Assembly (NCBI GenBank): GCA_028352435.1 | Contig: JAOMMB010000008.1 | Location: 1-34,510, forward strand | From: Candidatus Thioglobus sp. | GTDB taxonomy: Bacteria > Pseudomonadota > Gammaproteobacteria > PS1 > Pseudothioglobaceae | DNA length: 34,510 bases | Direction: 5' to 3' | In this document: positions 12,635-30,478 of the stretch, one piece after another | How positions within the stretch are numbered: the stretch's first letter is position 1 | Layout of the letters: the number at the start of each line of letters is the position of its first letter | Notes under the pieces: generated by a model | What the model saw: the letters and a program-made list of their open reading frames with translations, nothing else | Told to the model about the DNA's origin: nothing | Databases searched by the model: none | Program-made: the position numbers and the translations under genes

Positions 12635-13242
12635 TGAAAATTAAGATTTGCGGATTTACTCAGGCTCAAAATGCACACGATGCGTCTTTGCTTGGTATTG
12701 ATGCAATAGGATTGGTTTTTTATGACAAATCTCCACGTTATGTAGAGATTCAGCGCGCCTTAGAAATCGTTCAGGCTTTGCCACCTTTTATTAATCGTGT
12801 GGGTTTATTTGTTAACGCAGATTCTTATTTTATTGACGAAGTACTGTGCGAGGTGCCACTCGACACCTTACAATTCCATGGCGATGAAACACCTCAAGAA
12901 TGTCAGCAATATGGCTTACCTTTTATGAAGGCTTTGCGCGTTAACGAGCAAACAAACATCCCTCAACTAGCACAAGACTACTATCAAGCTAATGGCTTAT
13001 TGCTGGACGCTTATAATTCTACAACTTATGGCGGCACTGGAGAGAGTTTTGATTGGTCATTGGCCAAGGTTGAACTTGATCTGCCTATTATTTTGGCCGG
13101 CGGTCTCAATCCTGAAACAGTGGGTAAAGCGATTCAGCAAGTTAACCCCTATGCAGTTGACGTGTCAAGCGGTGTAGAAAGCTCTAAGGGCATTAAAGAC
13201 ATTCAAAAAATTCAACAGTTTATTCAGCAAGCAAACCTATGA
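12634..13242 (+). CDS. trpF: Phosphoribosylanthranilate isomerase
   Basis: Third step of tryptophan synthesis from chorismate: an Amadori rearrangement of phosphoribosylanthranilate to CdRP. It has 202 residues and a single TIM-barrel domain. The start is [16 protein letters not shown] with the catalytic Cys, [20 protein letters not shown] holds the catalytic Asp, and [14 protein letters not shown] plus [14 protein letters not shown] bind phosphate. The start is GTG at 12634, overlapping the previous stop by one base. Its TGA overlaps the trpB ATG as ATGA. trpF stands alone here and is not fused to trpC as in enterobacteria. Confidence 0.96.
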
Positions 13243-14444
13243 GTCACTACAACTTACCAGACGATAGTGGTCATTTCGATCAATTTGGTGGTGCATTTAT
13301 GCCAGAAACCTTAGTGGCCGCTGTTACTGAACTAAAAGAAGCTTACGAAAAATATAAAGACGACCCAGAGTTTTTAGCAGAATTTGAACAAGATCTTAAG
13401 CACTATGTAGGCCGCTCTACGCCGCTTTATCATGCAAAAAATTTAAGCAAAAAACTGGGCGGCGCCCAAATACATTTAAAGCGCGAAGACTTAAACCATA
13501 CTGGTGCACACAAAATAAACAACACCATTGGTCAGGTTTTATTGGCAAAACGCCTTGGAAAAACTCGAATCATTGCTGAAACTGGTGCAGGCCAACACGG
13601 TGTTGCAACCGCAACCGTTGCTGCTCGTTTAGGGCTAGAGTGTGTGGTTTATATGGGTGAGGTCGATGTTGCTCGCCAAGCCTTAAATGTTTTTCGTATG
13701 AAGCTACTCGGGGCATCAGTTGTGCCTGTATCTTCTGGCTCAAAAACTTTAAAAGATGCACTTAATGAAGCGATGCGTGATTGGGTAACCAATATCGATG
13801 ATACTTTTTACATCATCGGAACCGTGGCTGGACCTCATCCTTATCCAATGATGGTGCGTGATTTTCAAAGTGTTATCGGTAAAGAGGCTAAAAAACAGTT
13901 TGCCGATCAAGTGGGCGGTTTGCCAGATGCATTGGTAGCTTGTGTGGGCGGCGGCTCAAATGCTATTGGCCTTTTTCATGAATTTATTGACGATTCATCC
14001 GTTGACATTATCGGAGTTGAGGCAGCTGGACATGGCTTAGAAAAAGGCCCTAGTGCACATGCAGCACCCTTATGTGCTGGCAGTGTTGGTGTGCTTCATG
14101 GCAATCGCACCTATCTTATGGAAGATGAAAATGGCCAAATTATTGAAGGTCATTCAATTTCAGCTGGGTTAGACTATCCAGGAGTTGGCCCAGAACATGC
14201 TTACTTAAAAGATTCAGGTCGAGCAAAATATGTAGCTATTACTGACGAAGAAGCGCTAGACGCTTTTCACACACTTACCAAAGTAGAGGGCATCTTGCCC
14301 GCACTCGAGTCTTCTCACGCAGTAGCTTATGCAATTAAGCTTGCTCAAGAATTAACACAAGATAAGCATATTATCGTCAACCTCTCGGGTCGTGGTGATA
14401 AAGATATTCATACAGTTGCTGAAATCGAAGGTATTCAATTTTAA
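13239..14444 (+). CDS. trpB: Tryptophan synthase beta subunit
   Basis: PLP enzyme that condenses indole with serine to give tryptophan, working with TrpA. It has 401 residues. The PLP lysine is Lys92 in [14 protein letters not shown], the phosphate-binding loop is [15 protein letters not shown], and the C terminus has [13 protein letters not shown]. It is the last gene of the block with trpF. Its partner trpA is not adjacent but starts about 9.9 kb downstream, next to hemE and accD. The 43-base gap to the convergent sdaA gene contains short A/T-rich inverted repeats, none convincing as a terminator. Confidence 0.97.
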
Positions 14445-14487: not shown

Positions 14488-15855
14488 TTAGCACTCGGTC
14501 ATGCTTAGAGCAAGCCCACCAAGCGAGGTTTCTTTGTATTTACTAGACATATCAAGCCCAGTTTTTCTCATGGTTTCAATGCAACGATCCAAAGAGATTA
14601 AATGCTCTCCATGTTCTTTGAGTGACAAAGAGGCTGCGAGATAAGCACTAATCGCACCAAACCCATTGCGCTCGATACATGGAACTTGCACCAAGCCTTT
14701 AACTGGATCACATGTTAGACCTAGATGATGCTCTAGTGCGATTTCTGCTGCATTTTCAGTTTGTTCGCTAGTACCGCCTTTCGCAGCACATATTCCTGCC
14801 GCCGCCATAGATGCTGCAGAACCAACCTCACCTTGGCAACCAACTTCAGCGCCAGAAATAGAACTGCGATGTTTGATTAAACCGCCAACGGCTGCTGCCG
14901 TTAATAAAAAATCGTATATTTGTTGTTGGTTAATTTTTTGATGATGCACCAAGTGATATAAAATTGCTGGAATGATTCCAGCAGCGCCATTAGTAGGCGC
15001 TGTAACCACCATATGCCCCGAAGCATTTTCTTCATTAACTGCCATTGCATAAGCGCATAACCAGTCATTCACGTCAGCGTTGTCTGGATCATTCTGTAGT
15101 TGTTGATATAGATTTTTGGCTCGTCTGGGCGTGTCTAAACCGCCGGGTAATATTCCCTCACCTAACAAGCCTTTTTCAATACAAACCTCCATTGATTGCC
15201 AAATTATATCCAAGCCTTTTTCTAAAGATTCTTTAGAAAGGTTTTGAGCTTCATTGGCGTACTTCATTTGTGCAATCGATAGCCCACTTTCTTTAGACAT
15301 TGATAACATGGCGTCAGCAGAGTCAAACGAATAGGGAAATTGTGCTTTAGACTGACTCAGTATAGGAGCCTTTATTTGGTGGATATTCTCTAGAGTTGTA
15401 ATGAATCCTCCACCAATGGAGAAATAAGTCTCTGATAAAATAAGTTGCTCGGATGCATCTAGCCATTCAAAAACCATGCCATTGGGGTGCTGTGATAGCG
15501 AGTGCTTTGTATCAAAGATAATGGCTTTCTCAGTGTCAAACTTAACACTGCAATCTTGCCCTAATGAAATGGCTTTTTTACGTCGTAATTGATCGGCAAG
15601 ACTATCTACATCTGACTGGGCTAAATCCTCTGGCAAGTAGCCATGTAGTCCCAAAATAATAGCCAAATCAGTTGAATGGCCAACGCCTGTATAAGCCAAT
15701 GAATTTTTAAGTATGCAGCGAACATGAGTATTTTTCTGAGCAGATTGTTTACGCATAAGATCAGCGAAACTATGTGCCGCTATCATTGGCCCCATTGTGT
15801 GAGAGCTTGATGGTCCAATGCCTACTTTAAATAATTCTAAAACGCTGATAAACAT
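14488..15855 (-). CDS. sdaA: L-serine ammonia-lyase, iron-sulfur type
   Basis: Single-chain [4Fe-4S] serine dehydratase, converting L-serine to pyruvate and ammonia. It has 455 residues, the usual length for SdaA/SdaB. The N-terminal beta domain starts [20 protein letters not shown]. The catalytic alpha domain has [13 protein letters not shown] and three cluster cysteines at Cys340 (EVGCQGEVG), Cys382 (LTCDPVKG) and Cys393 (VPCIERN). Which of the sdaA/sdaB paralogs it matches best cannot be told here. It is transcribed alone, convergent with trpB and divergent from the EF-hand/amidohydrolase gene. Confidence 0.94.
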
Positions 15856-15987
15856 AAATACGATTTGTTGATATTATTAGTCATCATAGTAAAATGATAC
15901 TACTATATTTATTCCAATAAAGTTTTATTTAAGCGTTCAAAATAAGGAACTTGGGCAGAACTATCCCCATAAAAATAATGTTTTAAT

Positions 15988-16016
15988 TTGACACACATGA
16001 TACAATTAAATATTGA
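15988..16016 (+). promoter_or_regulatory. Candidate sigma-70 promoter for the EF-hand/amidohydrolase gene
   Basis: A perfect -35 TTGACA (15988-15993) is followed after 17 bases by TATTGA (16011-16016), a weak -10. The predicted transcript start is about 17 bases before the GTG start codon at 16040. A ribosome binding site AAAGGG lies just upstream of that GTG. The rest of the 184-base divergent gap shows nothing further that I recognise. Confidence 0.45.
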
Positions 16017-16039
16017 CTATTTCTTTTAAAGGGTAAAAC

Positions 16040-17203
16040 GTGCATAAAAAATTAATGATTAATTTATTAGTGAGTCTAGCAGTTGGTTTAGGAATCGTTT
16101 TTTCTTCTGCGGTTTTCGCTAAAAATCCAGTAAAAGTAGTTAAGAATATGGACCACGATGGAGATAATAAGGTGAGTTTAAATGAGTGGACTAAATCACC
16201 ATTTATTTTTAAAAAAATTGACTTTAATGGTGATGGCTATATAACTGCTGAAGAGTTTGCAAAAAAATGGGGCATTCCTATGCCTGGCGGCCCGTCCAAC
16301 GAAAGAAGTATTGATGAAGCGGGGTCATTAGATATGTCGGCCACTATTATTGCTGATGTGCATATGCACCCTCACCCTGATAACCACCCAATTGACCAAC
16401 TGTCATGGATGAACCGTAATGGCGTTAAGTGGGCCGGACTAGGTGAAATTAAGGGTGGTAGAGATATTCGTGAAAAATATCGTCAAGCTATGGGTAACCG
16501 TTTTATCCCTTTTGGCGGACAAAGCACTATGAATTCAATTTATTTTAAGCATGGTATAGAAGGGCTTGAAGACCTTAATAACTGGATGTTTAAGTCATTA
16601 ATGAATGAGTTAGAAGAGGACTTCGCTTCTGGAAAGCTAAAAGGGATTGGAGAGTTGTTCGGAAACAACAGTAAATCTAACCCCAATCCAAAGGTTAGAA
16701 GAAAAACCCGAATCGATGCACCAACTTACTTAGTAATGCTTGATCTGGTTGAAAAATATGGAGGCGCGTTATCACTCCATGTTCAAATGGATAAAGATTC
16801 AATTGAACAACTTGAAATTTTGGCTGATCACAATCCAAATGGCAATATTATTTGGGCGCACTGTGGTAATAACAGTTATGCTGAAGAAGCGCGTGGCGTA
16901 TTGTTAAGGCATAATAACATCTATTGCGACCTCGCTGCGAGACACACTCCAAAACTAAAAGATCGTGTTATATCAAAGAGGCCACATTCAGAGATTTTTA
17001 CATCGGATAGTTTAGACGACTCTTGGAGAGTTTTAATAGAAGAAATGCCGGATCGATTTATGGTTGGTACAGATACTAAAACTGAAGGACATTACGATAA
17101 GGGCATTTATAATATTAGAAACGGCCTTCTGGCAAACTTAAGTCAAGAAACGGCAGAAAAAGTTGCTTATAAAAATGCTCAAAGATTACTAGATTTGCAT
17201 TAG
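16040..17203 (+). CDS. Exported EF-hand / amidohydrolase fusion protein
   Basis: A 387-residue protein with three parts. Residues 1-27 form a signal peptide (KK, hydrophobic core, AVFA before the cut). Residues about 38-72 hold two EF-hand calcium loops, one with Asp38, Asp40, Asp42 and Glu49, the other with Asp61, Asn63, Asp65 and Glu72 (DFNGDGYITAEE). From about residue 100 follows an amidohydrolase-type barrel with ADVHMHPHP (His108, His110), LSLHVQMDKDS, IIWAHCGNN and a late metal Asp in MVGTDTK. It is probably a periplasmic or secreted metal-dependent hydrolase. The substrate is unknown; the barrel resembles the amidohydro_2 group that includes decarboxylases and lactonases. The GTG start is chosen for its AAAGGG site; an ATG five codons later is possible. 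Its end overlaps the MFS gene by four bases. Confidence 0.8.
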   Translation: MHKKLMINLLVSLAVGLGIVFSSAVFAKNPVKVVKNMDHDGDNKVSLNEWTKSPFIFKKIDFNGDGYITAEEFAKKWGIPMPGGPSNERSIDEAGSLDMSATIIADVHMHPHPDNHPIDQLSWMNRNGVKWAGLGEIKGGRDIREKYRQAMGNRFIPFGGQSTMNSIYFKHGIEGLEDLNNWMFKSLMNELEEDFASGKLKGIGELFGNNSKSNPNPKVRRKTRIDAPTYLVMLDLVEKYGGALSLHVQMDKDSIEQLEILADHNPNGNIIWAHCGNNSYAEEARGVLLRHNNIYCDLAARHTPKLKDRVISKRPHSEIFTSDSLDDSWRVLIEEMPDRFMVGTDTKTEGHYDKGIYNIRNGLLANLSQETAEKVAYKNAQRLLDLH

Positions 17204-18369
17204 GTGTGTTTCTTATTAAGCCACCACAGTAATATCATTAGTTGAGTAATTAATAGTGGCACAACAGACAGTAGTACAACTTCCCAGCCAAAGTTAAATA
17301 CAAACCAGCCTGCTGATAGCGAGGCGATGGCTTGAAGACTAAAGATTAAGAAATCATTAACTGACTGAACTTTAAATTTTTCATGCTCATGATAGGCTTT
17401 AGGCAGTAAGCTTGTGCCGCCGATAAATAAAAAATTCCAACCAAGGCCTAGCAAAATCAGTGAAATCCAATAGTTGTCTAAAGCATGACCTGAAAGGGCG
17501 ATGGCAACACAAGCAACATACAGTAGCACGCCGGTAAACATCATTTTTCCTAGGCCTAAAATTTTAACAATGATCGGGGTAAATAAAGACGGAAAAAACA
17601 TAGCGATCACGTGAGACTGAATCACAAACTTAGTTTGTTCTAGTGAAAATCCATCAATAACGTGCATACTCATTGGCGTGGCTGTCATTAAGTAGCTCAT
17701 CACAATATAGCCAACTGCCGCACTAGACATGGCAACAATAAAAACAGGCTGTTTAATGATAGTATTTAAGTTTCTGGTAGCTTCACCCTGTTTCGGTTTG
17801 AGGGCGCTAGTTTGCTGATAAAACCATAAAAGTACAAAAGCAGTAATAAAGCAGCCACCCAATAAAATAAAAGAGCCGACAAAATCTGTTTCAAGTATAT
17901 CTCTTCCTAAGGTAGCCAACTCAGGGCCTAAAAAAGCAGAAACCAGGCCACCAATGAGTACGGCAGAAGTTGCTGTTGCGCTTAAATTTTCTTCAACACT
18001 CTCAATAGCGGCAAATCTAAACTGATTCATAGTAGCGGTAGTAATGCCAAATAGAAAAGTAGCCATACAAAATAAATAGAAAGATTGAGCTTCAAGTGAG
18101 GTGATGGCAAGTGCAATAATCACTAATGTATAAGTGCAAACACCTAAGAATGTTTTGCGTCTGCCAAAAATTGACATAATTTTATTGATAGGAATGATGC
18201 CACTAGCCGTTCCAACTACTAACAGCGCTACGGGTAATGTGGATAAGCTATCACTTGGTGCTAGAGTTTGGCCGATAATACCGCCTAAAAAAATCACAAA
18301 AACACTAAGCGACATAAACAGCGATAAACTGGCTGTTAGAATCCAGACGTTTCTAGGCAGGGCGAACAT
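17200..18369 (-). CDS. Major facilitator superfamily transporter
   Basis: A 389-residue integral membrane protein with about 12 hydrophobic segments in two halves, separated by a charged loop (QTSALKPKQGEATRNLN, about residue 190). The MFS motif between helices 2 and 3 is recognisable as NKIMSIFGRRKTFLG. The substrate cannot be told from the sequence; similarity is to general drug- or metabolite-efflux type MFS proteins. The ATG is immediately next to the glmU stop, so it belongs to the block 20388 to 17200. It ends head-on with the EF-hand/amidohydrolase gene. Confidence 0.85.
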   Translation of the reverse strand: MFALPRNVWILTASLSLFMSLSVFVIFLGGIIGQTLAPSDSLSTLPVALLVVGTASGIIPINKIMSIFGRRKTFLGVCTYTLVIIALAITSLEAQSFYLFCMATFLFGITTATMNQFRFAAIESVEENLSATATSAVLIGGLVSAFLGPELATLGRDILETDFVGSFILLGGCFITAFVLLWFYQQTSALKPKQGEATRNLNTIIKQPVFIVAMSSAAVGYIVMSYLMTATPMSMHVIDGFSLEQTKFVIQSHVIAMFFPSLFTPIIVKILGLGKMMFTGVLLYVACVAIALSGHALDNYWISLILLGLGWNFLFIGGTSLLPKAYHEHEKFKVQSVNDFLIFSLQAIASLSAGWFVFNFGWEVVLLSVVPLLITQLMILLWWLNKKHT

Positions 18370-19728
18370 TTATTTTTTAACGGGTCTTTTCCAGTTTGAG
18401 AAGAGTCGTTGCTTTGCCCTGCTTAAGCTAAGTTGTTCATCAGGTGCATCTGTTGTGATGGTAGACCCTGCGCCAATAGTAGCATTTTTGCCAACACTAA
18501 CAGGTGCCACCAGCTGTGAATCAGAGCCAATGAATGCGCCATCACCAATAACAGTTTGATGCTTATTAGCGCCATCATAATTACAAGTAATTACACCTGC
18601 ACCAATATTAACATCAGCCCCTAGGATAGCGTCACCAACATAGCTAAGATGTGAAATTTTTGAACCCTTGCCAACAGTAGATTTTTTGACTTCTACAAAA
18701 TTGCCAATTTTGGCATTTTCACCAATATTAGTTTGAGGGCGAACTCTGGCAAATGGACCAATCAAAGCGCCATTACCGACCACAGCATCCTCAATAACAG
18801 AGTTTGCCAAGATAGAAACGTTATCGCCGATTTTTGAGTTTTTTATACAACAATTTGGTGCAATTGTTGTATTGTTTCCTAGTGCTACTACTCCTTCAAT
18901 TAGGGTGTTGAAGTCAATTTCGCAATCTGTTCCAAAGCTTAAGTCACCTCGACAATCAAAGCGTGATGGATCTTTTAAACTTAAACCGAGTTGCATGTAT
19001 TGAGTGGCTTTGCGATGTTGAAAGATACGCTCTAGTTGCGCTAGTTGAGTTTTATCATTAACGCCCGCTACCTCGAATTCATCTGCAGTAACAACAGAGG
19101 CAACGGTTTTTTGATCGCTCGTGGCTGATTCAATAATATCGGTTAGATACAATTCGCCTTGGGCATTGTTGGTATTAAGGCCAGCTAGGTACTTCTTGAG
19201 TAATTTGGTTTGCACAGCCATGATGCCAGTATTGACTTCACAAATTTTAAGCTGTTCATCGCTTGCATCTTTTTGCTCAACAATGGCCTGAATGGCGTTG
19301 TTATTGCGAATAATGCGCCCATAACCCATAGGATCTTTTAAGACAACCGATAAAAGGGCAATGTCTGATACTTTAGAGGCATTGATCAACTGATCTAGTG
19401 TTGCGCGCTGAATAAGAGGCACATCGCCATAAAGAATCAGCGATATTGAATCATCCTCAATATGCGGCGTTGCTTGTTGTACTGCATGGCCAGTGCCTAG
19501 TTGCTCTGTTTGTTCAACCCAATTAATCGTGTCGTCATTAATGACTTGTTTAACTTGATCGCCACCAAAACCATAAACCACATGAACTTGTTGACTGATT
19601 AATTTGGCTTGTTCAAGGACGTGATCTAACAGCGTTTTGTCTGAAAGTGTTTGCAAGACTTTAGGCTTTGATGAGTTCATGCGCGTGCCTTTACCCGCTG
19701 CAAGAATAATAGTGTGAATGTTGTTCAT
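18370..19728 (-). CDS. glmU: Bifunctional GlmU: GlcNAc-1-P uridyltransferase and GlcN-1-P acetyltransferase
   Basis: Makes UDP-N-acetylglucosamine for peptidoglycan and lipid A in two steps. It has 452 residues. The N-terminal nucleotidyltransferase domain (about 1-228) starts IILAAGKGTRMNSSKPKVLQ and has LILYGDVPLI and ELYLTDII. The C-terminal left-handed beta-helix (about 250-452) has hexapeptide repeats such as IGDNVSILANSVIEDAVVG, and the acetyl-transfer region is HLSYVGDAILGADVNIGAG. In many gammaproteobacteria glmU follows atpC; here it lies some 17 kb away and is linked to an exported unknown protein and an MFS transporter. Confidence 0.97.
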   Translation of the reverse strand: MNNIHTIILAAGKGTRMNSSKPKVLQTLSDKTLLDHVLEQAKLISQQVHVVYGFGGDQVKQVINDDTINWVEQTEQLGTGHAVQQATPHIEDDSISLILYGDVPLIQRATLDQLINASKVSDIALLSVVLKDPMGYGRIIRNNNAIQAIVEQKDASDEQLKICEVNTGIMAVQTKLLKKYLAGLNTNNAQGELYLTDIIESATSDQKTVASVVTADEFEVAGVNDKTQLAQLERIFQHRKATQYMQLGLSLKDPSRFDCRGDLSFGTDCEIDFNTLIEGVVALGNNTTIAPNCCIKNSKIGDNVSILANSVIEDAVVGNGALIGPFARVRPQTNIGENAKIGNFVEVKKSTVGKGSKISHLSYVGDAILGADVNIGAGVITCNYDGANKHQTVIGDGAFIGSDSQLVAPVSVGKNATIGAGSTITTDAPDEQLSLSRAKQRLFSNWKRPVKK

Positions 19729-20388
19729 TTAAAAGTCTTCAACAATAGGGTTTTGGTCGAGGTAGCTTTCGGTAATACCCGGAACAATAAAACTGATGAT
19801 AGCAACTACCTGCCCATCTTTACGTCCGACACTATAAGTGGCGGCACGCATCTGGATAGGGGCATTTTTAAAAATATCAGAAAAATTATGAGATTTTCTA
19901 GATTGAGCTGAAAACTCTTCTTTGCTAATGAAGGTATATTTAATATTATAGTTTTGATACGCTTCATTCTCAAAATCTGCAATCATTTTGGTAAATTCAT
20001 CTTTATTAAAAGTATTGGCACTCACCTCTAATATGTCGAATTTTTCCTTACCATCTTGAATTAAAACTAGGTCAAACTGTGTCTTTAGCACATGAAACAT
20101 TTTTTTAACTTTACTAACATCGCTCAGAGGCAGCATTAATACCGTAGAAACTAAGCGATCATTAAGAAAACGAAATGCCAGCTCAGCCTCTTCTCCTGCT
20201 AAAGAATGATTTTTTAAGCATAAGGTACCTTGTTCATATCTGGCAGAGCAGTCTTCTAAGGTATGAGCCTTTTGTAAAAAAACCTTGGGCATACCAACGA
20301 CATATTGCTTATATAGTTGAATTTGTTCGCCGGCAAAACTAGGTGTACTGAGCAGAGGTAACAAAATTAATAGTAGAATGCGCTTCAT
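19729..20388 (-). CDS. Exported hypothetical protein upstream of glmU
   Basis: A 219-residue protein with a clear signal peptide (MKRILLLILLPLLSTPSFA, cut before Gly20), so it is probably periplasmic. The mature part is about 200 residues with mixed strand and helix and two cysteines close together (EDCSARYEQGTLCLKN, about residues 48-57) that could form a disulfide. No lipobox and no further membrane segment is seen. I do not recognise a family. Its stop is immediately followed by the glmU ATG, so the two are co-transcribed. It diverges from ccoI across a 71-base gap. Confidence 0.75.
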   Translation of the reverse strand: MKRILLLILLPLLSTPSFAGEQIQLYKQYVVGMPKVFLQKAHTLEDCSARYEQGTLCLKNHSLAGEEAELAFRFLNDRLVSTVLMLPLSDVSKVKKMFHVLKTQFDLVLIQDGKEKFDILEVSANTFNKDEFTKMIADFENEAYQNYNIKYTFISKEEFSAQSRKSHNFSDIFKNAPIQMRAATYSVGRKDGQVVAIISFIVPGITESYLDQNPIVEDF

Positions 20389-20417
20389 AAGGAAAAATCG
20401 TTTTAATTTGGCTCATA

Positions 20418-20446
20418 TTGTAAACGCATAAGTCTTTAAATACAAT
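20418..20446 (+). promoter_or_regulatory. Candidate sigma-70 promoter of ccoI
   Basis: TTGTAA (20418-20423) and TACAAT (20441-20446) are separated by exactly 17 bases. The predicted start of transcription is about 7 bases before the ATG at 20460, which leaves no room for a ribosome binding site; none is visible. No FNR-type palindrome (TTGAT-N4-ATCAA) is seen in the 71-base gap. Confidence 0.5.
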
Positions 20447-20459
20447 AAAATTAGTCTGT

Positions 20460-22874
20460 ATGAGCAACTCTTGTTTTCACTGCGGATTAGAAGTTACCAG
20501 TCGTAATCGCATTCAGTCAAATATTGATAAGATACCCCAGGATTTTTGCTGTGTTGGGTGTGCAAGTGTTTGCCAAACGATTCATCAAAGTGGGCTTGGT
20601 GCTTTTTATGAGCAACAAACTAGCTCGGTGCTTCCAGCGGTGGTACTCGAGTATCCACTTGAGTTTTATGATGCACAGGCATTCCAACAGCCTTTTTTAG
20701 AGTCAGCACCATCTGGTGGGAAAATTATTACCTTAATTAGCGACACGATTCATTGCGCTGCTTGCGTATGGCTAATAGAAAGAGCAATTGGATCATTAGA
20801 GGGGGTGAATTGGGTTCGTGCAAATTTAACCAATAAACGCATTCGCCTAAGCTGGAATGAAAGCGAAATACAGCTGTCTAAAATCATGCAACGTTTGGCA
20901 GGCTTGGGTTATAGCGCCATGCCGTATGAGCAAAATATAGCCGAGAAAATTGCTAATAAGGCTAATAAGGCCATGCTTTACAAGATGGGGTTTGCTGCTT
21001 TTACAATGATGAACTTATTGTGGATTTCAATCGCTATGTATACCGGTGCTAGTGATGGTAAGTATTATCAATATTTCCAGTGGCTAGGATTTGCTTTGGC
21101 AACACCTACCTTATTTTATTCTGGATTTGGATTTCTAAAAAGTGCTTATAGTGGCCTTAGAAATGGCTTGATAAACATGGATGTGCCGATTAGTATTGGC
21201 GCCCTCACCACCTATTTTTATTCTGTTTATGTTCTGCTCGGCTACTCTGTTAAAGGTGAGGTGTACTTTGATACGGTGGTGAATTTTATTTTTGTTATTT
21301 TAATCGGACGCTATTTAGAAGGCTCGGCCAAAAAAGCTTCTATTTCAGCCTCTAGCTCTTTACAGCAGTTGCAACCCAAAGTAGCTTTAGTGATTAAAGG
21401 TAAGGATGAAATCATCACCCCAGTAGGCGCGATTAATATTAATGATCAAGTGTTGATTAGACCGGGCGAGCGTATTCCAGTCGATGGATACGTACTTTCG
21501 GGCGAGAGTGATGCAGATGAATCCTTACTAAGTGGCGAGTCTAGGTTGGTGATAAAAACACCAGGTGATGAGGTTTTTGCTGGCTCAGTTAATGGCCAGG
21601 GAGCGCTGGATATTTCAGTTACTAAAACGCTCAAGCAATCAGTTTTGGGCAAAATCGTCAGTCTGGTTGAAAACACCCAGCATAGCAAAAACTCTGTGGT
21701 TTGTAGTATTGATAGAATCATCCCATATTTTGTTGGTGTGACAATATTTCTCGCTCTCGCTACTTTTGTTTATTGGTATCCGCAAGATTTTGATTTAGCC
21801 TTGTTAAGTGCCACTAGTGTACTTATTATTACCTGTCCTTGTGCATTTGGACTGGCTACACCAATGAGTATCGCGGTAGCAAGCAGCGTCGCTATTAAAG
21901 AAAAAATGCTCATTAAAAATAGTGACACGCTGGAAGTGTTAAATAAAGTTGATTGGGTGGTATTTGATAAAACCGGCACACTAACTTCGGGCGAGTTTAG
22001 GGTTGAGAAGATCGTAAGCACTTCTTCTCAAGATCAGCATGAAAAAATAGCTTTGATACAGCTAATGGCGAGTATTGAAAAGTATTCAGAGCATCCGCTG
22101 GCACAAGCTATTGTGAATGAAAATCATGATGAACTGCTCAGCGTTACAGGCTTTAAAGCTACACCAGGCCAAGGTGTTAGTGCAACCATTGATCAAAAAA
22201 TAATTAAAGTGGGCAGGTTGTCATTTATAGACATTGATCATCGAGTGGATGCTGATATGCTTAAAGAATCTCAACAAATAGAGTTAGAGGGGTCAAGCTG
22301 TATTTGGTGTTCAAGCCAAGATAAGGTTCTAGGGTTTGTTGCCTTATCTGACCAAATAAAAAAAGATGCAAAGGCCACAATCGCTCAATTGCTTAATCTA
22401 GGTAAAAAAGTTAGTATTTTGAGTGGTGATAGCCAAGTAGTGACTCAAAAAGTTGCCAATTATTTAGGCATTGAGCATGTAGTCGCCCAAGCATTGCCAG
22501 AGGATAAGGCGAATTATATTAAGCAATTGCAACGCCATCATTGTGTACTTATGATTGGTGATGGAGTAAATGACGCACCGGCATTGGTACAGGCTGACAC
22601 TAGCATGGCGATTGGCTCTGGTAGCGATGTGTCCGTTAATCATGCCGATGTCGTATTGTTAAAATCGACATTATCACCAATTTTAGCCATGATTAATTTG
22701 TCTAAACGCACCAGTCAAACCATCAAACAAAATATTACTTTTGCATTGTTATACAATACGCTGATGGTGCCATTAGCAATGATGGCAAAGGTTACACCGC
22801 TGTTTGCCGCCATTGTAATGCCGATTAGTTCACTCATCGTCATTGGCAATGCAGCCCGACTTCGAAATAAATAA
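20460..22874 (+). CDS. ccoI: Copper-transporting P1B-type ATPase, CcoI/FixI type
   Basis: Inner-membrane copper pump; the CcoI/FixI branch is needed for copper supply to cbb3-type cytochrome oxidase. It has 804 residues. The N-terminal cysteine-rich domain of this branch is present (CFHCGLEV at residues 5-12, FCCVGCASVC at 29-38), which also fixes the start. A heavy-metal domain has Cys99-Ala-Ala-Cys102 (HCAACVWLIERA). The transmembrane metal site is Cys459-Pro-Cys461, the phosphorylated Asp is Asp503 in DKTGTLTSGE, and the ATP hinge is MIGDGVNDAPALVQAD. The gene is solitary: ccoNOPQ, ccoG, ccoH and ccoS are not beside it. A general CopA exporter is the alternative, but the N terminus favours CcoI. 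Confidence 0.88.
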   Translation: MSNSCFHCGLEVTSRNRIQSNIDKIPQDFCCVGCASVCQTIHQSGLGAFYEQQTSSVLPAVVLEYPLEFYDAQAFQQPFLESAPSGGKIITLISDTIHCAACVWLIERAIGSLEGVNWVRANLTNKRIRLSWNESEIQLSKIMQRLAGLGYSAMPYEQNIAEKIANKANKAMLYKMGFAAFTMMNLLWISIAMYTGASDGKYYQYFQWLGFALATPTLFYSGFGFLKSAYSGLRNGLINMDVPISIGALTTYFYSVYVLLGYSVKGEVYFDTVVNFIFVILIGRYLEGSAKKASISASSSLQQLQPKVALVIKGKDEIITPVGAININDQVLIRPGERIPVDGYVLSGESDADESLLSGESRLVIKTPGDEVFAGSVNGQGALDISVTKTLKQSVLGKIVSLVENTQHSKNSVVCSIDRIIPYFVGVTIFLALATFVYWYPQDFDLALLSATSVLIITCPCAFGLATPMSIAVASSVAIKEKMLIKNSDTLEVLNKVDWVVFDKTGTLTSGEFRVEKIVSTSSQDQHEKIALIQLMASIEKYSEHPLAQAIVNENHDELLSVTGFKATPGQGVSATIDQKIIKVGRLSFIDIDHRVDADMLKESQQIELEGSSCIWCSSQDKVLGFVALSDQIKKDAKATIAQLLNLGKKVSILSGDSQVVTQKVANYLGIEHVVAQALPEDKANYIKQLQRHHCVLMIGDGVNDAPALVQADTSMAIGSGSDVSVNHADVVLLKSTLSPILAMINLSKRTSQTIKQNITFALLYNTLMVPLAMMAKVTPLFAAIVMPISSLIVIGNAARLRNK

Positions 22875-22916
22875 AACAAACTGATAAAAAATAAAGCGAC
22901 GTAGGTGCAAATAGTA

Positions 22917-22922
22917 TATAAT
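22917..22922 (+). promoter_or_regulatory. -10 box for rpmE
   Basis: TATAAT stands 35 bases before the rpmE ATG, in the 83-base gap after ccoI. The -35 region at the proper distance (AAGCGA) is weak. Confidence 0.45.
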
Positions 22923-22957
22923 TTGCTCTCTTTTAAGATTTAAACCTTATTACAAAC

Positions 22958-23170
22958 ATGAAAACAGATATTCATCCTAATTACGACACCGTTAAAGTAG
23001 TTTGCTCGTGCGGTAACACATTCGATACTCGTTCAACGATAGGCAAAGAAGAGCTACATTTAGATGTGTGTTCAAGCTGTCATCCTTTTTACACAGGTAA
23101 GCAAAAAATTACAGATAGTGCTGGCCGTGTTGAGAAATTCAAATCACGTTTTGGTGCATTCAAAAGATAA
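22958..23170 (+). CDS. rpmE: 50S ribosomal protein L31, zinc-binding form
   Basis: Large-subunit ribosomal protein L31. It has 70 residues, the usual length. The zinc ligands are complete: Cys16 and Cys18 (VVCSCGNTF) with Cys38 and Cys41 ([14 protein letters not shown]). This is the C+ form used when zinc is available; the C- paralog rpmE2 is not in the window. It has its own -10 box upstream and a strong terminator 20 bases after its stop, so it is probably a single-gene unit. Confidence 0.97.
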
Positions 23171-23190
23171 ACCGAATCGATTTAAAGAAA

Positions 23191-23215
23191 AAGCCACATT
23201 TATGTGGCTTTTTTT
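23191..23215 (+). terminator. Intrinsic terminator after rpmE
   Basis: AAGCCACA (23191-23198), loop TTTA and TGTGGCTT (23203-23210) form an eight-base-pair stem, followed by an unbroken run of T to 23215 and preceded by an A-rich stretch. Confidence 0.9.
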
Positions 23216-23251
23216 ATGCCCGATTGGATAGGAAATATAACCAAATATCGT

Positions 23252-23257
23252 TATAAT
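23252..23257 (+). promoter_or_regulatory. -10 box for the hemE-trpA-accD transcript
   Basis: A perfect TATAAT between the rpmE terminator and hemE, 29 bases before the hemE ATG at 23287. A matching -35 is not clear; TTGGAT lies 22 bases upstream, which is too far for normal spacing. Confidence 0.45.
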
Positions 23258-23286
23258 TGTGGGATTCTTTTTTTATCCATGATTCT

Positions 23287-24321
23287 ATGTCATTTGATTA
23301 TCTTAACGCACTAGCAAAGAAGCCAACAACACGCACCCCAGTCTGGGTAATGCGTCAAGCGGGGCGCTACTTACCTGAATACCGTGCAACGCGAAAGCAA
23401 GCGGGCGACTTTATGAGTTTGTGTCGTAATCCAGAGCTTGCTTGTGAAGTAACCATGCAGCCTATGGATCGTTTCGATTTAGATGCGGCTATTTTATTCT
23501 CAGATATTCTTACTATTCCTGATGCTATGGGATTAGGGCTGTATTTTAGTGATGGAGAGGGGCCAAAATTCGAACGCCCTATCCAAACTTTGGCAGATAT
23601 TGAAGCCATCCCTTCAAACGTTAACAACGATTTAACTTATGTTTTTGATGCGGTTTCTACTATTAAATCTGCTTTAGGTGCGCGCGCACCACTCATCGGA
23701 TTTACCGGAAGTCCATGGACTTTAGCGACTTACATGATTGAAGGCGGTAGTAGTAAAACATTTGCTAAAACCAAAGCCATGCTTTTTAACGAGCCGAAAA
23801 TGCTACACTTACTATTAGATAAATTAGCCGACAGCGTGATTGCCTATTTAGACCAGCAAGTCCAAAGTGGCGCAGATAGTTTGATGGTGTTTGACACTTG
23901 GGGCGGCGTTTTATCGAGACAAAATTACTTAGATTTTTCGCTAAGCTATATGCAAAAAATTGTGAACGGCGTCAAGGCGAAACACCCAAATACACCGATT
24001 ACTTTATTTAGTAAAAATGGCGGCAAACACTTAAATGAAATTGCTGCAACAGGTTGTGATGGTGTAGGCATTGACTGGACAGTAGAGCTAGGCGAAGTAC
24101 AAAGCAAAATTGGCGATAAGGTAGCCATCCAGGGTAATTTAGACCCCGCTGTGATGTACGCAACCCCCGAGATTATTAGAGCAGAAGTTAAGAAAGTGTT
24201 AAGCCAGTTTAAGGGCGATACTGGACATATCTTTAATCTTGGTCATGGCATAACGCCTGATGTTAACCCTGAAAATATGGCTGTGCTGGTTGATAGTGTT
24301 CACGAGTTCAGCGCAAAATAA
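23287..24321 (+). CDS. hemE: Uroporphyrinogen decarboxylase
   Basis: Cytoplasmic haem-pathway enzyme that removes four carboxyl groups from uroporphyrinogen III to give coproporphyrinogen III. It has 344 residues from the ATG at 23287. A longer frame begins with GTG at 23257, but that codon lies in the predicted -10 box and the extra residues do not fit the family. The signature [16 protein letters not shown] is at the N terminus, with [12 protein letters not shown] and the [17 protein letters not shown] loop following. It is two bases from trpA and appears to lead the run hemE-trpA-accD-fkpB-ispH. Confidence 0.96.
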
Positions 24322-28764: not shown

Positions 28765-29340
28765 ATGACTGTAAAATTTCAAAATTACCTACTGGAAAAC
28801 GCCATAGCCTTTGTGAGTGTCTTTTCCATGGCGTACATTATGATCTGGTTCGGCTCGTTTGAGCTTGAAGTGGGTTCATATGTGTATTTGCCATTAGGTG
28901 CAAAAATATTAATGTATTTGATTTTTGGTTATCGAGTATTTCCAGGTGTTATCGCCGCTTGTTTAGCTGGCGGTATTGTCTTAATGGGTTCTCGGGGCGG
29001 CAACCTCTTCATTGGCATGCTATCTGCTTGTGCGGGTGCAGTCGCTCCGATTTTGGCCATGGGCTTTATGAACCTAACTCATGTTAGTGATTTCTCTAAT
29101 CTGAGCAAGATTGATTTTAGACATGTTTTATTCTTGGTAGTTTTTACATCAGTCATAAGCGCACTGCTTAAGTTCTTTGTTTACATGCAAGATGTCACCC
29201 TTAATATTAATGCAGTAACTTTCATTACTCATTACATTAGGGGCGATGTCATTGGAGGCCTGGTGGTGGTTTACTTAGCTTTGGGTTTTGTTGCCCCAAT
29301 TATAGAGCGGTCTTACACGAAAAAAACAGCTCACTTTTAG
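28765..29340 (+). CDS. MASE1-like integral membrane protein, paralog A
   Basis: A 191-residue protein with about six transmembrane segments and no soluble domain. It shares with the next two genes the motifs YLPLGAKI (residues 41-48), IFGYRVFPG, GAVAPILA, FRHVLFLVV with His120, ALLKFF, and a final GDVIGGLVV. This order resembles the MASE1 membrane sensor domain normally found in front of GGDEF, EAL or histidine-kinase domains, but no such output domain is present. No clear ribosome binding site precedes the ATG. A substrate-binding S component of an ECF transporter is a less likely alternative on size and topology. Function unknown. Confidence 0.7.
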   Translation: MTVKFQNYLLENAIAFVSVFSMAYIMIWFGSFELEVGSYVYLPLGAKILMYLIFGYRVFPGVIAACLAGGIVLMGSRGGNLFIGMLSACAGAVAPILAMGFMNLTHVSDFSNLSKIDFRHVLFLVVFTSVISALLKFFVYMQDVTLNINAVTFITHYIRGDVIGGLVVVYLALGFVAPIIERSYTKKTAHF

Positions 29341-29356
29341 GCTATAATTTGAACCT
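29338..29356 (+). repeat. Copy 2 of the promoter-like repeat (TAGGCTATAATTTGAACCT)
   Basis: Matches 28360-28377 except for one inserted G. It begins at the stop codon of paralog A and places a perfect TATAAT (29343-29348) 30 bases before the GTG of paralog B, suggesting that B and C have their own promoter of the same type as the regulator gene. Confidence 0.6.
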
Positions 29357-29377
29357 TAATAACCAAAGGTTACTTTC

Positions 29378-29914
29378 GTGTTAATTGTTAAATATAATAT
29401 AGTCGCCTTTGTCTTAGTCATAATCTCTTCATTGCTAATAGAGTACAAGACACCTATGGACATTTCCATTGGAAGCTTACTATACCTTCCAATGGGTGCA
29501 GCTATCTTTTCTTATCTTCTATTTGGTTTTGGCGTTCTACCGGGTTTGGCTATTGCCAATACTCTAATAGGCTATTTTATCTGGGACAATTGGTTTGGCA
29601 TGGGATTGACTGGAGTTTTTGGCCATGTAGTTGTAGGATCTTTAGCGCCAATTGCTGCAATTCTAACGATGAGATATTTCAAACTATCAAAGTTTTATGA
29701 TGATGGAGATCTTAATTTTAGGCATGTAATATTTCTTGTTATTTTGACAGCATTGATTAATGCCTTATTAAAGTTTTTTATCTTTATGAACGCCCTTCCT
29801 GAGTTTCATGCCCCGGTCCAATTTATCTTAACCCATTTTGTAAGCAATACTCTAGGGGGGCTGGTCTTTATCTATGGAGTCAGTCGGCTATCAAATTTCT
29901 TAGTTAAGCGATAA
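29378..29914 (+). CDS. MASE1-like integral membrane protein, paralog B
   Basis: A 178-residue membrane protein with about six transmembrane segments. It aligns over its whole length with A and C: SIGSLLYLPMGAAI (residues 30-43), LFGFGVLPGL, GSLAPIAAILTMRYFKLSKF, FRHVIFLVI with His116, INALLKFF and VSNTLGGLVFIYG. The GTG start is chosen because AAAGG lies nine bases upstream and no ATG is near. In the last motif the Asp found in A and C (GDxxGG) is Asn (SNTLGG). It is nine bases from C and looks more like C than A. No output domain; function unknown. Confidence 0.7.
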   Translation: MLIVKYNIVAFVLVIISSLLIEYKTPMDISIGSLLYLPMGAAIFSYLLFGFGVLPGLAIANTLIGYFIWDNWFGMGLTGVFGHVVVGSLAPIAAILTMRYFKLSKFYDDGDLNFRHVIFLVILTALINALLKFFIFMNALPEFHAPVQFILTHFVSNTLGGLVFIYGVSRLSNFLVKR

Positions 29915-29923
29915 AATTTATCT

Positions 29924-30478
29924 ATGTTTACAATTAATATCATTATCGCTCTGGTTATTTTTTTAACGTCAGCCTTGATGTCATGGACAAATGGTATTGA
30001 CATCACACTTGGAAATTATTTATGGCTACCAATGGGTGCAAAGATATTAGCATTCTTACTATTTGGGCTTTGGGCATTACCGGGTGTTTTACTAGGGTCA
30101 CTGATGAGTGGGTACATTCTGTATAATTTTTTGAATGTTGATCCTATCTATGGGCCTCTAGGCTCTTTGATCGGAACTTTTGCACCAATGAGTGCGATAC
30201 TAATAATGCGGTATTTCAACTTATCCACGTTCTTTGATGGCGATAAAAAATTGGAATTTAGTCACGTTATCTTTTTAATTGTATTGTCATCAATAATTAA
30301 TACATTACTTAAGCTGTTTCTTTATTTTGGTAGAGTAAGTGGAGTTGATCAGCAGCAGATAGATAGTTCTGAATTTATACTCAGTTACTTAACAGGTGAC
30401 ATATTAGGCGGTATTGTATTTATCCTGCTTACAATTAAGATTTTTATGCCACTTTTAATACGATTTAAGCTAATTTAG
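29924..30478 (+). CDS. MASE1-like integral membrane protein, paralog C
   Basis: A 184-residue membrane protein with about six transmembrane segments, the third tandem paralog. Shared motifs are LGNYLWLPMGAKI (residues 29-41), LFGLWALPGV, GTFAPMSAILIMRYFNLSTF, FSHVIFLIV with His114, INTLLKLF and LTGDILGGIVFI. It begins nine bases after B and ends with its last nine bases overlapping the end of mfd on the other strand. As with A and B, it has no signalling domain and its role is unknown. Confidence 0.7.
   Translation: MFTINIIIALVIFLTSALMSWTNGIDITLGNYLWLPMGAKILAFLLFGLWALPGVLLGSLMSGYILYNFLNVDPIYGPLGSLIGTFAPMSAILIMRYFNLSTFFDGDKKLEFSHVIFLIVLSSIINTLLKLFLYFGRVSGVDQQQIDSSEFILSYLTGDILGGIVFILLTIKIFMPLLIRFKLI

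Follow-up and report, generated by a model that had tools for sequence, protein, structure and literature searches.

An EF-hand front end joined to an exported-type amidohydrolase at a variable locus of Candidatus Thioglobus

The Locus and the Encoded Protein

We analyzed a stretch of 34,510 nucleotides (the window) from contig JAOMMB010000008.1 of Candidatus Thioglobus sp. (assembly GCA_028352435.1), in which the order around the gene of interest is trpB, sdaA, fusion gene, MFS and glmU (Table 1). The fusion gene has a GTG start, with aaaggg directly 5′ of it; it has no second match in this genome, whose 928-kb assembly has a rated completeness of 67%. Its 387-residue product joins a signal peptide, a pair of EF hands, a linker and an amidohydrolase barrel, in this order. 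Most likely, the product is a metal-dependent member of the amidohydrolase superfamily that works as a soluble enzyme in the periplasm (or is secreted). An earlier note on this DNA had read signal peptide, EF pair and amidohydrolase as one chain, which is borne out by Pfam scores above the cut-offs and by four other genomes with the same architecture, their proteins being 65–69% identical to that of the window. The parts are known; among the matches listed in our search of the open-access literature (titles and abstract openings), none described this architecture.

Table 1. Positions of genes, protein segments and the divergent block in the window.
Feature	Position	Strand	Remarks
trpB	13239..14444	+	In relatives, bounds the variable interval on the left
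sdaA-type gene	14488..15855	-	Relatives: located to the left or right of the EF fusion gene, or not found here
Block differing from sister genome G009	15955..18600	.	Right edge not exact; it falls within the 3′ part of glmU
Fusion gene, 387 aa	16040..17203	+	GTG start
Sec-type signal peptide, aa 1–27	16040..16120	+	Read by eye; no lipobox seen by eye
EF-hand module (EF-hand pair), aa 28–82	16121..16285	+	Pfam EF-hand families; lowest mean dN of the chain
EF loop 1, DHDGDNKVSLNE, aa 38–49	16151..16186	+	Pfam, leader alignment
EF loop 2, DFNGDGYITAEE, aa 61–72	16220..16255	+	Pfam, leader alignment
Variable linker, aa 83–101	16286..16342	+	Mean dN 0.36; G004 swap point near its start, where identity drops
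Amidohydrolase (PF04909) barrel, aa 102–387 and stop	16343..17203	+	Pfam, alignment, model
MFS transporter gene	17200..18369	-	Convergent with the fusion gene; resident neighbor within the block read as exchanged

Three Pfam families match the window protein: EF-hand_5 (PF13202; E 7.6e-9, two stretches, 35.1 bits against a curated cut-off of 25.9), EF-hand_1 (PF00036; E 2.8e-8, 33.2 against 25.4) and Amidohydro_2 (PF04909; E 6e-10, 39.8 against 26.4, aa 233–386). Since both halves of the chain score above curated cut-offs, the architecture is more than chance. The front end, or leader, was aligned in six proteins, leaving out the leader of G016, which runs 50 aa to a contig end, and the 38-aa remnant in G011. 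In G026, the N-terminus is uncertain because no common start codon stands at the aligned position. Cleavage of the signal peptide would be expected after A27; A27, K28 and P30 are invariant in 6/6 leaders. Oxygen ligands occupy loop positions 1, 3, 5, 9 and 12, and nine of these ten positions are invariant in the six leaders, position 3 of loop 1 being D or N; as a minor correction, loop 1 has N at position 6, where G is usual. Also invariant in the six leaders are W50 and FAKKWG (aa 73–78). A lanmodulin-like type of metal binding was considered and rejected (NF053806, 21 bits against a cut-off of 135).

The barrel carries the motifs HMH (H108, H110), WAHCGN (H274) and GTD (D345), as the earlier note had it, and these four residues, together with E205 and H247, are invariant in 5/5 aligned sequences, the window's included (alignment A1, from which G026 was omitted). 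All six are probable metal ligands. Comparable motifs also appear in more distant relatives whose starts are of the export type. An AlphaFold model of the whole protein, built from five sequences (mean pLDDT 70.6), is confident over most of the barrel; among solved structures, the barrel matches 3cjp_A best by fold (Z 21.6, rmsd 2.5, 223 aligned residues), and the best Foldseek E-value is 4e-8. The model also aligned with many other members of the amidohydrolase superfamily. In the front of the model, residues 2–88 have pLDDT < 50; modeled alone from four sequences, the EF part reached a mean pLDDT of 56.2 and a pTM of 0.36, so that its helix-loop-helix fold is a low-confidence prediction. At the sequence level, a barrel profile found nothing among solved chains at E 0.01, and a phmmer search of solved chains with the whole window protein gave 21 sequences at E 1, all matching the EF part of the query only.

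The window protein shares with Amidohydro_2 proteins the barrel fold (fold relatives 3cjp, 4dlf and 3irs), the profile match and the HxH with further H and D residues; dihydroxybenzoate decarboxylases, ACMSD and 2-pyrone-4,6-dicarboxylate hydrolase may be named from this group for comparison. Unlike the proteins compared, the window chain has a signal peptide and an EF pair in front of the barrel.

Distribution of the Fusion

The EF/amidohydrolase fusion is rare and local, in agreement with the rarity that the earlier note proposed to examine by a domain search. The front end was matched in 7/83 genomes of the family (Thioglobaceae), five of them with amidohydrolase fusions (G000, G006, G010, G020, G026), one (G004) with another enzyme and one (G016) cut by a contig end. 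The barrel was matched in nine of the 83: the same five fusions, a remnant in G011, a fragment in G036, and G017 and G052, whose barrels are 33% and 29% identical and whose ORFs are PF04909-positive and without an EF-hand match. Beyond the family, 15 genomes besides the window matched in a class sample (369 genomes, E 1e-10), all from model position 189 onwards, and two besides the window in a phylum sample (398 genomes, E 1e-12), from position 218 onwards. These are partial barrel matches only, and no complete fusion was found in the other 368 or the other 397 genomes; both samples were drawn from larger groups at these strict thresholds, and rare relatives can be missed.

A scan of one genome per species (84,980 species), which is based on short peptide patterns that diverged fusions can escape, gave six loci. 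Three are Candidatus Thioglobus fusions, probably the same records as G006, G010 and G020. Another (L022) is a contig-end fragment of 54 residues, and a protein from Nitrospinaceae (L023) is distant and has no EF-hand match. The last, L021, comes from a Rhodospirillaceae MAG and resembles the window enzyme, with 59% identity over aa 103–386 and all six probable ligands; unlike it, the protein has 322 aa, starts with an export-type N-terminus and has no Pfam EF-hand match.

Two mobile origins were considered and rejected. For a virus, one viral contig stretch fit a pattern and none encoded a relative, with no phage match; for a plasmid, three Variovorax plasmids gave barrel-only matches of 26–28% identity.

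The Front End on Another Enzyme

In G004, which belongs to the genus of the window, a 280-residue ORF (L006, 1495–2337) carries the same signal peptide and EF pair followed in frame by an alpha/beta hydrolase, and it sits at the same locus as the amidohydrolase fusions. Its EF module shares 53 of 55 residues with that of G010, 51/55 with that of G026 and 39/55 with that of the window. The swap point lies near the start of the linker: compared ungapped with G010, 25 of 30 bases are identical in codons 71–80, 18 in codons 81–90 and 12 in codons 91–100. The DNA 5′ of the start also aligns among G004, G010, G006 and G026.

PF12146 and PF00561 give weak matches to the hydrolase domain of G004, with scores under their cut-offs. 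The domain has a GISTG elbow, at residue 148 when numbering begins with the second possible start, and a stand-alone alpha/beta hydrolase resembles it at E 1e-7; against solved sequences, the one match is at chance level (E 0.95). Compared by BLASTP, the amidohydrolase and alpha/beta hydrolase parts align over stretches of 9 and 13 residues only (E 0.43 and 1.5). Searched for in the 83 family genomes, the alpha/beta hydrolase domain turned up in G004 alone, and among the 398 phylum genomes it gave three matches at E 1e-5 with 26–30% identity (L100–L102), whose ORFs look like exported stand-alone enzymes. With L021 on the amidohydrolase side, both enzymes thus exist alone elsewhere and are here joined to one front end. 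Because signal peptide and EF pair together also precede an unrelated enzyme in a closely related genome, they look like a reusable, portable front end, on the evidence of a swap known from one assembly (1/83 family genomes).

A leader profile run on the class sample (E 1e-4) matched 29/369 genomes, window included. There were 31 leader-like matches besides the window; 19 had loci, which were read on both strands. By eye, 18 of the 19 look like small EF-hand proteins, the majority of them bearing an export signal; as far as these loci were read, none is an amidohydrolase or alpha/beta hydrolase fusion. Small exported EF-hand proteins of this kind are a plausible source of the module. The one other locus (L090 445–1656, in G337, another gammaproteobacterium) is a transaldolase-like ORF with an EF pair at its C-terminus. 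Like the window protein, such transaldolases (NF008965, PRK12309) combine a soluble enzyme with a compact EF pair; unlike it, the enzyme is another one, the pair is C-terminal and no export signal was seen. On the NF008965 model, which has a cut-off of 550 bits, the EF part of the window protein reaches 20.8 bits.

Such a source raises the question of whether the EF pair does anything at all in the fusion. A small exported EF-hand gene may have donated its promoter and signal peptide, the EF pair being now a functionless leftover; the abundance of small EF-hand proteins among the leader-like loci fits this, and a single capture event would give expression and export together. The substitution pattern speaks against it. 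Mean dN, taken over the five fusions with an amidohydrolase, is 0.41 in the signal peptide, 0.15 in the EF module, 0.36 in the linker and 0.23 in the barrel, pairwise dS running from 0.78 upward and often being saturated, so that only the ranking of the modules is safe. The EF module and the barrel both look constrained, the former more than the latter, and a functionless pair would also sit poorly with nine of ten ligand positions kept invariant. We therefore regard the leftover explanation as distinctly improbable. The conservation of the ligands themselves is only modestly significant against the fairer of two controls: the 9/10 invariant positions compare with 29/85 at other leader positions (p 0.001) and, as the fairer control, with 22/45 at other EF-module positions (p 0.03), p-values that are guides only since the six leaders are few and related.

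A Probable Exchange at the trpB–MFS Interval

The fusion gene occupies an interval that differs among relatives. In G006, G010 and G020, the order is trpB, fusion, MFS and glmU; in G026, the fusion is followed by glmU and the contig ends upstream; in G004, it is trpB, EF/alpha-beta hydrolase, sdaA, MFS and glmU. The fusion gene was not found between trpB and MFS in G002 and G009 (trpB, sdaA, MFS) or in G007 and G014 (trpB, MFS). The sdaA-type gene (L035, L064) lies on the trpB side of the fusion in the window but on the MFS side in G004, and was not found at the locus in G006, G010, G020 and G007; the interval therefore varies beyond the fusion gene.

Two further genomes show traces at this site. 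In G011 (L041, G011:C210, about 698–970), the amidohydrolase is reduced to roughly its final 38 codons, next to MFS; upstream of this remnant lies an unrelated stretch bounded by inverted sequence, ctaacggcgtggcaata / tattgccacgccgttag, which by eye resembles a gene-cassette recombination site. In G016, one contig ends on the right with trpB and then the EF leader (L040, G016:C3), and a second carries the end of trpB and then MFS, without an EF leader (L068, G016:C46); this assembly perhaps represents two strains, with and without the fusion gene.

The comparison with the close sister G009 narrows the event down. In 200-base bins, the two genomes are 96–99% identical left of position 15955 and 92–99% identical from 18600 to 23800. 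Between 15955 and 18600, the fusion gene is absent in G009, and the shared MFS stretch is 69–76% identical. Outside this block, 1-kb pieces are 87–99% identical across the whole window. In the MFS tree, G009 groups with G002 and G004, apart from the window. The simplest reading is that one of the two lineages exchanged, through homologous recombination, a block of about 2.6 kb holding the fusion gene and an MFS allele. It is possible that the edges of the block reflect a joined assembly of two strains, but a fusion gene beside MFS recurs in three other genomes. No donor of the window block was found; past the nearest MFS allele (G027:C40, 85%), the 482 bases available contain no fusion. Elsewhere in the window (28765–30478), three tandem membrane-protein-like ORFs of 191, 178 and 184 aa have similar sequences, and the two 1-kb pieces least like G009 outside the exchanged block (87–88%) lie there.

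As a dedicated partner of the fusion, the MFS transporter was rejected, since it is present in 52/83 family genomes against 7/83 for the EF leader. The genes neighboring the fusion in the window point to no pathway.

As for the swap itself, a FastTree phylogeny of topA, orf235 and trpB places G004 between carriers of the amidohydrolase fusion, a position that fits a replaced amidohydrolase in this genome. The leader and amidohydrolase trees, on the other hand, conflict with this tree (e.g., G000 joins G026 in the leader tree, support 0.86), and horizontal exchange is therefore just as likely as replacement.

Possible Roles of the EF-Hand Pair

We lean, with modest confidence, toward a periplasmic metallohydrolase whose calcium-loaded EF pair serves folding or placement rather than switching. 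An amidohydrolase barrel of the exported kind would have been joined to a ready-made signal peptide and compact EF pair. After export, the pair would bind two Ca2+ ions and, in sea water, would always be saturated; thus loaded, it would fold and then stabilize or position the chain, a job that would be independent of the substrate. The barrel would bind one or two metal ions through its six probable ligands and act on a small substrate. The low dN of the EF module, its kept ligands, the variable linker and the reuse on an unrelated enzyme together make the module best read as serving the whole exported chain.

An alternative, along the lines of the earlier note, is that binding of Ca2+ to the EF pair switches the amidohydrolase on or off. 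In its favor, the ligand positions are conserved in both loops and the EF part is less variable than the enzyme. A finely fitted allosteric contact is hard to reconcile, though, with a variable linker and with nearly the same EF pair preceding an unrelated enzyme in G004. The calcium concentration met after the apparent export is a further objection: sea water contains about 10 mM Ca. A bacterial protein for comparison is EfhP (PA4107) of Pseudomonas aeruginosa, which resembles the window protein in its two canonical EF loops and predicted signal peptide, changes structure upon Ca2+ binding and binds Ca2+ with a Kd of 13.7 µM (PMC9132961). Compared by description, EfhP differs from the window protein in that it is described as a Ca2+ sensor, with no mention of an enzyme domain in the passages concerned (PMC9132961). 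If the affinity of the window's loops is alike, the level in sea water would far exceed this Kd and the loops would always be loaded, so that a role in structure or placement is more likely than switching. Switching is, for these reasons, improbable to us.

The pair might also work by docking: loaded with Ca2+, it would bind a fixed partner at the cell surface or in the periplasm and bring any enzyme joined to it to the same place. Two unrelated enzymes share the front end, and residues of the EF module besides the ligands stay conserved, W50 and FAKKWG among them. The dockerin type I profile (PF00404), however, left the window protein unmatched at E 10 and gave the G004 protein 13.5 bits, below the cut-off of 22.9. 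Docking in this strict sense seems to us unlikely, if still worth keeping in mind, and a loaded pair that helps the chain to fold or be placed is the account that we retain.

Significance

The relatives add two things to the earlier reading of this gene: the front end stands on another enzyme in G004, and the gene is absent in the sister G009. The function of EF-hand pairs in exported bacterial proteins is often unclear. Here, nearly the same EF front end precedes two unrelated enzymes within one genus, and a related enzyme without an EF front exists in another class. This natural swap makes a direct test possible between an EF job that is independent of the enzyme (folding, stability or location) and the regulation of one active site.

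We also put forward, as a doubtful conjecture, that Thioglobaceae keep a portable calcium front end, consisting of the upstream region together with the signal peptide and the EF pair. It would dock or place enzymes in a generic, Ca2+-dependent way, and the enzymes behind it would be exchanged at one variable chromosomal site. If so, populations would display different enzymes at the same extracytoplasmic address. The comparison also points to the trpB–MFS interval of these small Thioglobaceae genomes as a variable site where such exported enzymes come and go.
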